From positions 1 to 23,546 of IMG/VR virus record IMGVR_UViG_3300009094_000472: a stretch of DNA of 23,546 bases. One strand, given 5' to 3'. Under the pieces are notes generated by a model. That model made no database searches. It was not told the origin of the DNA and worked only from the letters and a program-made list of their open reading frames with translations. Shown here piece by piece: positions 21,888 to 23,546 of the stretch (position 1 is the stretch's first letter; each line of letters opens with the position of its first letter). The position numbers and the translations under genes are program-made. Source of the DNA: a virus.

Positions 21888-22367
21888 TTAATCCTTGAGC
21901 TTCTCGGACCCCGTCCACGCGATCAGCGCGGCGTCGGATCGTCCGTGTTTGTTTTTGGTGAACCAGTCGGCGCGCTCGGGAAAGATCTCCCTCGCTTTCT
22001 TCAAGGACCCGTCCTTGCCGCCCCTCAACCGCGCCAGCGACTGCCACTTCTGCGGCGTCATGTAGGTGATCGGGATGGCCAGCGCCGCGATCAGGCCTTC
22101 GAGCTGGCCGACGACGCGGCCGAACTGGTAGGTGCTGGACACACCCTGCTGGGGCATCGGCCCGACCAGTTCGATGAAGGCACGGGTGACCAGCGGCCGG
22201 TTTTCGAGAAGAAAACTCGACAATGACTGGAGATCTATCTCGCGCTTGGACCCACCACCGCGCTTGAGGGTGTGGGTCGGCATGTCGAGGATCGAGTGCA
22301 GGGCGCTGACCGAAGGTTCATAGAGCGCAATGGCGCCGGTCAGGCCGGGGTCGAGACCGATAATCAT
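21888..22367 (-). CDS. RuvC-like Holliday junction resolvase
   Basis: A 159-aa RNase H-fold nuclease, the first gene of the leftward operon. The acidic residues expected of RuvC are present: Asp6 in Ile-Gly-Leu-Asp-Pro-Gly-Leu-Thr-Gly, Glu66 in Phe-Ile-Glu-Leu, and His141/Asp145 in Lys-His-Gly-Arg-Ser-Asp-Ala-Ala, with length close to bacterial RuvC. It likely cuts branched replication or recombination intermediates before packaging. No good Shine-Dalgarno sequence precedes ATG 22367; the leader from the proposed promoter would be about 60 nt. Confidence 0.88.
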   Translation of the reverse strand: MIIGLDPGLTGAIALYEPSVSALHSILDMPTHTLKRGGGSKREIDLQSLSSFLLENRPLVTRAFIELVGPMPQQGVSSTYQFGRVVGQLEGLIAALAIPITYMTPQKWQSLARLRGGKDGSLKKAREIFPERADWFTKNKHGRSDAALIAWTGSEKLKD

Positions 22368-22395
22368 AAGGCAGACGCTAGATTTGGTAGGGTAC

Positions 22396-22465
22396 GCATT
22401 CTGTTCCCAAAGATGTTGTAAGCATTATCTGATAGTAAGATAGAGCTTGAACTGACAGAATGCAA
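22396..22465. promoter_or_regulatory. Divergent control region with 9-bp inverted repeat
   Basis: GCATTCTGT at 22396-22404 is repeated inverted at 22455-22463. Leftward, TTGCAT (22465-22460), 17 bp and TATCTT (22442-22437) form a promoter-like pair that mirrors the 13.56-kb promoter. Rightward, ACGCAT (22394-22399), 17 bp and TGTAAG (22417-22422, extended -10) is a weaker counterpart, with the repeat in the same relative place. The stretch is notably AT-rich for this genome. Confidence 0.55.
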
Positions 22466-22476
22466 GGGGGAAGATG

Positions 22477-22598
22477 GCCGTCGAGGGGACGATCCCCTCA
22501 GATCGCCCCTCGACGGCTGCGTCTCCCTAAATGACCAGTCCACCGGGGGTGAACGATCAAAGACGCAATCGGTGCACGGTCCTGCCTGGGCCTGCACC
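22477..22598 (+). promoter_or_regulatory. Structured three-hairpin leader of the primase gene
   Basis: Three consecutive helices. P1: perfect 12-bp stem 22477-22488 with 22506-22517, plus an inner 5-bp stem 22490-22494 with 22501-22505. P2: 22518-22524 with 22561-22567, enclosing a small 4-bp hairpin (22541-22544 with 22548-22551). P3: 22571-22579 with 22591-22598 with one bulge. P1 has a competing 6-bp hairpin (22483-22488 with 22494-22499). No terminator T tract is visible. It ends 25 bases before the primase start. Confidence 0.6.
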
Positions 22599-22623
22599 AC
22601 GGCGACGGATTGGAGTACATCGC

Positions 22624-23546
22624 ATGGACAACGTAACTCCTTCTTTCTCAGTTAACAACCCCCTCGCCAAAGCACTCTCCCTGGCCCAGCGCGGCTTTCA
22701 CGTGTTCCCGTGCCACGACGACAAACGACCGGCGACAAAGCACGGTTTTCACGACGCTTCCGACGATCCGCTCAAGATCAAGATGATGTTCCGCGGCGCC
22801 CCCAAGGCGACCCTGGTGGGCATCGCCTGCCCGCAGTCGCAGATCCACGTGCTCGACATCGACCCCAAGGGCGAGACCTATTTCGCGGCAAACCAATCAC
22901 AGGTGCCCGAGACCCTGGAGATCAGGACGCGGCGCGGCGGCAAGCATTTGATCTACAGCGCCAACGAAACTCTCGCGCTCAAGAACAACGCGCGCAACGG
23001 GATCGATGTCCGGTCGGGCACGCCGGGCCATGGCGGCTACATCATCGCCTGGGGCGACGCCTATCAGTACGACCGACGTAAGATGTCCTCCGACTTTCCC
23101 ACAGGCTTCGTGCAGAACGCGTGGACACAAGCGGCCTCGAACGGGGTAAATCCCGCTTTATCGTCGCCGTTCGGCCTGGGGATCAACAGCCTGGGGATCG
23201 CCGGGACAACCATCGCCGATCGTATCCGGGAACTCGTGTCGACGGCTTCCAGAGTGCCCGACGGCGATTGCGACAACTTTCTCATTCAGGCCTACGGACA
23301 CGTCGCCAAGGCGTACAAGGACGGGGTGATCGGCCTCGAAGAGGCGCTCAAGACCTGCGGCCGCATAAACAATCGCCTAGTCACCAACCTCGACAAGGAC
23401 TTCGCCGGCAAGGTCATCCGGGTCGGGCTGACCGCGGACAGCGCCCTGGCCGGCCAGTACGAAGGCTACGACGACGGCGAGCCGATTGCGCCATTCCCGG
23501 TGAACCCGGTGGCCAAGGCCCAGGCGATCTTTCCTCCGGTCGTCGA
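22624..23546 (+). CDS. Bifunctional primase-polymerase (Prim-Pol), partial at right edge
   Basis: 307 complete codons are in the window and the frame stays open to the end. The N-terminal ~170 residues match the Prim-Pol domain of phage and plasmid primases: an Ala-x-x-Gly-Phe-His-Val-Phe-Pro-Cys opening (21-30), the metal-binding Asp78-Ile-Asp80, Gly-Lys-His108-Leu-Ile-Tyr, and Gly-Ile-Asp128-Val-Arg followed by a Gly-Gly-Tyr-Ile-Ile strand. A helicase domain often follows in this family but would lie outside the window. GGAG lies 8 bases before ATG 22624. It is divergent from the rest of the replication genes and preceded by a long structured leader. Confidence 0.88.
   Translation, partial: MDNVTPSFSVNNPLAKALSLAQRGFHVFPCHDDKRPATKHGFHDASDDPLKIKMMFRGAPKATLVGIACPQSQIHVLDIDPKGETYFAANQSQVPETLEIRTRRGGKHLIYSANETLALKNNARNGIDVRSGTPGHGGYIIAWGDAYQYDRRKMSSDFPTGFVQNAWTQAASNGVNPALSSPFGLGINSLGIAGTTIADRIRELVSTASRVPDGDCDNFLIQAYGHVAKAYKDGVIGLEEALKTCGRINNRLVTNLDKDFAGKVIRVGLTADSALAGQYEGYDDGEPIAPFPVNPVAKAQAIFPPVV

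Follow-up and report, generated by a model that had tools for sequence, protein, structure and literature searches.

The translational operator of gene 32 in phages T4 and RB69 contains a pseudoknot, and this structure and the autogenous repression have been shown by experiment (PMC535899). In RSF1010, the primase RepB' binds 40-nt ssi sites that have a hairpin and a GTG start (PMC4434180). The replication genes of pRN1 and phage BIP-1 also have a stem-loop beside them; its integrity matters in pRN1, and in BIP-1 it has been proposed as the origin. In both cases the stem-loop lies 3' of the gene and the helicase belongs to SF3; that of pRN1 is about 100 nt long with a large unconserved loop (PMC4234260).

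The locus described here lies in a 23.5-kb phage contig, IMG/VR virus record IMGVR_UViG_3300009094_000472; the whole stretch analyzed, 23,546 nt, is called the window. Its genes point to a tailed phage with an internal-virion/ejection module. It also encodes a family A DNA polymerase, an Enc34-type ssDNA-binding protein, a DUF2800/PD-(D/E)XK exonuclease, an SNF2-like helicase, a RuvC-like resolvase and a Prim-Pol primase. The latter two genes diverge from a non-coding gap (Table 1), the A+T-rich left part of which is presumably the site of the promoters. A Shine-Dalgarno-like GGAG precedes the primase ATG by a few bases. Elsewhere in the window, the 470-bp gap between the endolysin-like and tail genes holds a 13-bp intrinsic terminator with TTTTTT (862-892) and a second hairpin of 12 bp (706-744).

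Table 1. Features of the primase locus. Positions refer to the window, except where a locus of the related phage (L004, L009) is named.
Feature	Position	Strand	Remark
Hairpin 1 (outer stem, bulged A22489, GATC stem, CCCTCA hexaloop)	22476..22518	+	kept in the relative (L004 3891-3849)
Loop block GATCCCCTCAGATCGCC	22491..22507	+	17/17 identical in the relative
CCACCGGGGG	22540..22549	+	identical in the relative
Hairpin 2, 7-bp outer stem	22518..22567	+	no conservation in the relative
Hairpin 3, 6+5 bp, bulged C22577	22571..22598	+	sequence conserved in part; pairing in another register in the relative
Non-coding gap between divergent genes, 256 bp	22368..22623		RuvC-like start 22367 (-), primase start 22624 (+)
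RuvC-like Holliday junction resolvase gene, divergent neighbour	21888..22367	-	phrog_1770, E 3.7e-24
Prim-Pol primase gene	22624..23546	+	continues beyond the contig end
Promoter-like pair TTGAAC - 17 nt - GAAGAT	22447..22475	+	weak, tentative; read from sequence
Iteron cluster of the relative, 3' of the Prim-Pol/AAA_25 gene	L009 15833-16011 (contig 25832-26010)

The first hairpin of this gap resembles the gene 32 operator as a structured leader before a phage replication gene, with a structure that is kept while the sequence diverges between two related phages and with a replication protein as candidate ligand. The sequences are unrelated, however, and here a folded structure is predicted before the replication gene, with its transcription presumed. 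As in RSF1010 ssiA/ssiB, a short hairpin is located near genes for an archaeo-eukaryotic-type primase (RepB' in RSF1010) and a RepA-like (AAA_25) helicase (PMC4434180, PMC4234260), but the gap has no iterons and no conserved GTG 3' of the hairpin, and no opposite-strand partner was found. With pRN1 and BIP-1 the locus shares a Prim-Pol replication gene and a nearby stem-loop kept in structure. It differs from them in that hairpin 1 is 5' of the gene, is 43 nt long and has an invariant hexaloop, and in that the relative, where the helicase domain is visible, has one of the AAA_25 type.

Hairpin 1 is built from an outer stem of 12 bp, in which GCCGTCGAGGGG (22477-22488) is paired with CCCCTCGACGGC (22506-22517), and, after the bulge, an inner stem of 5 bp (CGATC 22490-22494 with GATCG 22501-22505) that closes the hexaloop at 22495-22500. 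Its folding energy alone is -34.0 kcal/mol, a stability reached by four out of 5000 versions with a shuffled 5' flank. The length of the stem is unremarkable by itself, since perfect 12-bp stems occurred in two out of 20 shuffles of the whole window. For the whole fold (22470-22610), z is -4.26, and none of 200 shuffles was equally stable. The original prediction of three stems (12+5, 7, and 8 bp) described the first correctly and all three are present, but the third consists of 6+5 rather than 8 bp (GGTGCA 22571-22576 with TGCACC 22593-22598, and GGTCC 22578-22582 with GGGCC 22588-22592). Stem 2 (TGCGTCT 22518-22524 with AGACGCA 22561-22567) encloses a weakly structured loop of 36 nt. Stems 2 and 3 are weaker than stem 1 and together give z = -2.4 (13/500 shuffles, sense strand).

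Using the neighboring helicase and resolvase as queries, we found one relative, IMGVR_UViG_3300026089_000019 (70 and 65% identity, respectively), with the same divergent gene arrangement. Its primase is a 700-aa fusion of Prim-Pol with an AAA_25 (RepA-like) helicase and shares 49% identity with that of the window over the part present in both. The leader of the relative reads GACCGGCGGCAGCGTA-GATC-CCCTCA-GATC-GCCACCGCCGGTC, and the same GATC stem and hexaloop terminate hairpin 1 in both phages. Besides the loop block, the two leaders share CCACCGGGGG, located 27 to 35 nt 3' of the GATC stem, and the remaining leader sequence has diverged. The GGGGG of CCACCGGGGG could pair with the loop CCCUC (22495-22499) or with a C-rich strand 3' of hairpin 1.

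By sequence alignment the outer stem comprises 8 bp in both phages, with the arms GGCCGUCG/CGACGGCU in the window and GACCGGCG/CGCCGGUC in the relative. Two pairs are changed on both sides, 22481-22513 from U-A in the window to G-C in the relative and 22477-22517 from G-C to A-U, while 22476-22518 goes from G.U to G-C; the other five pairs are the same in both phages, and no pair is broken. We roughly estimate the chance of this pattern, given how many changes there are, at ~0.004. We should note that MAFFT positions the single-base gap in the 5' arm differently, which makes the register of this arm a judgement. We did not adopt an ungapped register, in which six out of nine pairs differ on both sides, and preferred the one supported by sequence, which gives the more cautious count of two double changes and one single change. 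The inner stem differs: the window has 5 bp and a bulged A, the relative a mismatched stretch and a bulged GUA. When the arms were swapped between the two phages, the fold became weaker and hairpin 1 was lost. The hairpin of the relative is matched in stability by seven out of 5000 flank shuffles and beats the other 4993. Homologous leaders conserving neither stems nor compensation had been named as evidence that would refute a structured leader; in this relative, hairpin 1 is compensated, in a comparison of two sequences that is too small for a formal covariation test.

Of the three helices, hairpin 1 alone holds up as conserved. Stem 2 has no counterpart in the relative, which carries a different helix of 14-17 bp in that place. 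Stem 3 was favored as a conserved helix in a first hand count and has been dropped, as its pairing is offset by two bases in the relative, where the resulting stem is ordinary for its composition (701/5000).

Further searches left the relative as the sole homologous leader, no third one being found in scans of IMG/VR and genome collections. The loop pattern retrieved the relative and two chance matches in related actinophage-like contigs; combined with CCACCGGGGG, it retrieved the relative alone in one collection scan and nothing in another. A relaxed pattern gave 28 further loci, none with the hairpin, and a covariance model run over 42 sources matched just the two known leaders. Twenty-six more distant Prim-Pol genes are without such a leader motif, and neither protein searches nor DNA searches of INPHARED and PLSDB revealed a further member. 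The Rfam search gave sub-threshold chance matches and nothing at the gathering threshold, in agreement with the earlier statement that no named RNA family fits this leader. Hairpin 1 looks like a small new motif with two members.

Hairpin 1 may act in cis as a leader element of the primase-helicase mRNA, positioned at its 5' end or close to it; we put this reading forward tentatively, as nearly an even call. The paired stem would serve as a scaffold for the invariant CCCUCA hexaloop, displayed on a GAUC stem that has a bulge on its 5' side. The loop would most likely serve as a protein-binding site, perhaps for a replication protein of the phage that acts on its own message in the manner of T4 gp32. 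The hairpin may also shield the 5' end of the message; either protein binding or this cover could set the amount of primase made. The sequences show hairpin 1 itself, that one relative has kept it, and that its loop and CCACCGGGGG are invariant; that it is transcribed, that a protein binds it and in which direction it acts are inferred.

With modest confidence, we favor such an RNA leader element, with the hairpin either bound by a protein or protecting the 5' end, rather than an origin, on several grounds: the stability of hairpin 1 far above that of flank shuffles in both phages; the compensated outer stem; the identity of GATCCCCTCAGATCGCC and CCACCGGGGG in otherwise diverged leaders of primases so far apart; the position on the primase side of the gap, between the promoter-like pair and the ribosome-binding site; and, in the relative, a predicted transcription start at the first bases of the hairpin together with a separate, better origin candidate. 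That start follows from TTGACG - 17 nt - GAAAAT, just 5' of hairpin 1 in the place corresponding to the pair of the window. A promoter scan scored it 9/12 and did not pick up the pair of the window, from which a start is predicted about 5 nt inside the left arm of the hairpin. This start counts against a leader element, as do the sample of two sequences, the distant Prim-Pol genes lacking the motif and the equally good folding of sense and antisense strands. Strand asymmetry had been considered as a test of RNA versus DNA; with both strands folding alike it is uninformative, and the sequence cannot tell the two apart. Hairpin 1 also leaves the Shine-Dalgarno sequence uncovered, so that a translational mechanism requires further steps. 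The GGAGU of this sequence can pair with ACUCC of the first codons (window 22612-22638; weak, about -8 kcal/mol for the region), and a comparable pairing, GAGGAG/CUUCUC, is possible in the relative.

A bolder reading is that hairpin 1 represents a new class of RNA operator in phages. The CCCUCA hexaloop and CCACCGGGGG would make a loop-loop or pseudoknot contact that the Prim-Pol/RepA-like primase-helicase recognizes, one protein then serving its own message and the origin. We consider this a long shot.

Among the rival explanations, a generic hairpin that stabilizes the mRNA at its 5' end without a specific partner is unlikely but deserves weight, as hairpin 1 is close to the presumed transcript 5' end and strong hairpins are frequent in the intergenic gaps of related phages. 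A hairpin as such is therefore nothing unusual; what sets this one apart is its invariant loop and re-matched stem, and a generic stabilizer would need neither the 17-nt invariant block nor the invariant CCACCGGGGG. The idea that leader hairpins are a general trait of the primase genes of related phages was not supported by ranking the gaps in four relatives, where the hairpin of the primase gap came 1/16, 3/19, 9/17, and 11/19. In MW202711 (L012 35744-35778), an 11-bp hairpin takes up much of the 84-nt gap before a repA-like gene, with a loop that bears no relation to that of hairpin 1.

A DNA hairpin used in replication, either an origin or a single-strand priming site for the adjacent Prim-Pol/RepA-like protein in the manner of RSF1010 ssiA/ssiB or the pRN1 stem-loop, is similarly improbable. 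Archaeo-eukaryotic-type primases do use hairpins, the Prim-Pol of the relative is fused to an AAA_25 helicase, and the pRN1 and BIP-1 replicons carry their stem-loop beside a Prim-Pol replication gene (PMC4234260); hairpin 1, moreover, adjoins an A+T-rich stretch and folds on either strand. Against this, the gap of the window contains no direct repeats or iterons of the kind expected of an ssi site in an iteron-bearing oriV, and no GTG start site is conserved near hairpin 1, the GTG at 22549-22551 having no equivalent at the corresponding place in the relative. The GC skew of the window tracks gene direction and is uninformative on the origin.

A further observation comes from the region 3' of the primase gene, which is visible in the relative alone as the window ends within the gene. 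Directly after the primase stop codon (L009 15825), on the same side as in pRN1 and BIP-1, the relative has three tandem GACCGGGAAGA repeats in a cluster that also holds inverted copies and further variants. Beside these iterons lies a 12-bp palindrome, GTGTCCCATGGG-GTA-CCCATGGGACAC, and the G+C content drops to 0.48, the lowest of the region, all within 180 nt. The cluster has the anatomy of an iteron origin and, judged by these features, is probably the replication origin of the relative. It makes a stronger origin candidate than the leader does, and the suggestion that the leader itself is an origin structure is weakened in favor of a leader that controls primase expression. Further downstream, two overlapping long palindromes with stems of 15 and 13 bp and no T run are located between two leftward genes (L009 17101-17170). 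At L009 17177-19772, a CobT-like (VWA) gene adjoins a gene that matches the PHROG 'porphyrin biosynthesis' family and probably encodes a MoxR-type ATPase.

Hairpin 1 could alternatively be a DNA operator, in which a regulator of the divergent operons would bind an inverted repeat lying over the promoter, and its location in the divergent gap, abutting or overlapping the promoter-like pair, would suit this role. Dimer operators conserve their arms, whereas here the spacer is constant and the arms have changed in a paired way, which makes an operator of this kind quite improbable.

A bistable riboswitch or attenuator, as originally proposed, is very hard to credit: the alternative pairing of GAGGGG (22483-22488) with CCCCTC (22494-22499) exists on paper, and the GGGGG of CCACCGGGGG may have two C-rich partners in each phage, but at -11.7 versus -34.0 kcal/mol for the full hairpin the competing structure is 22 kcal/mol weaker, so that the leader RNA is not bistable at equilibrium, the relative lacks GAGGGG, no two exclusive conserved structures and no Rfam match were found, and a terminator scan of the leader found none. 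As a possible expression platform, the Shine-Dalgarno sequence has its weak pairing with early codons.

The finding on hairpin 1 is a modest one at present, with two homologues. To our knowledge, the control of phage Prim-Pol primase-helicases has hardly been studied. If hairpin 1 is a leader operator, it would offer a concrete test case for the autogenous control of these enzymes, and the iteron cluster after the primase gene of the relative provides a testable origin for a little-known group of phages.
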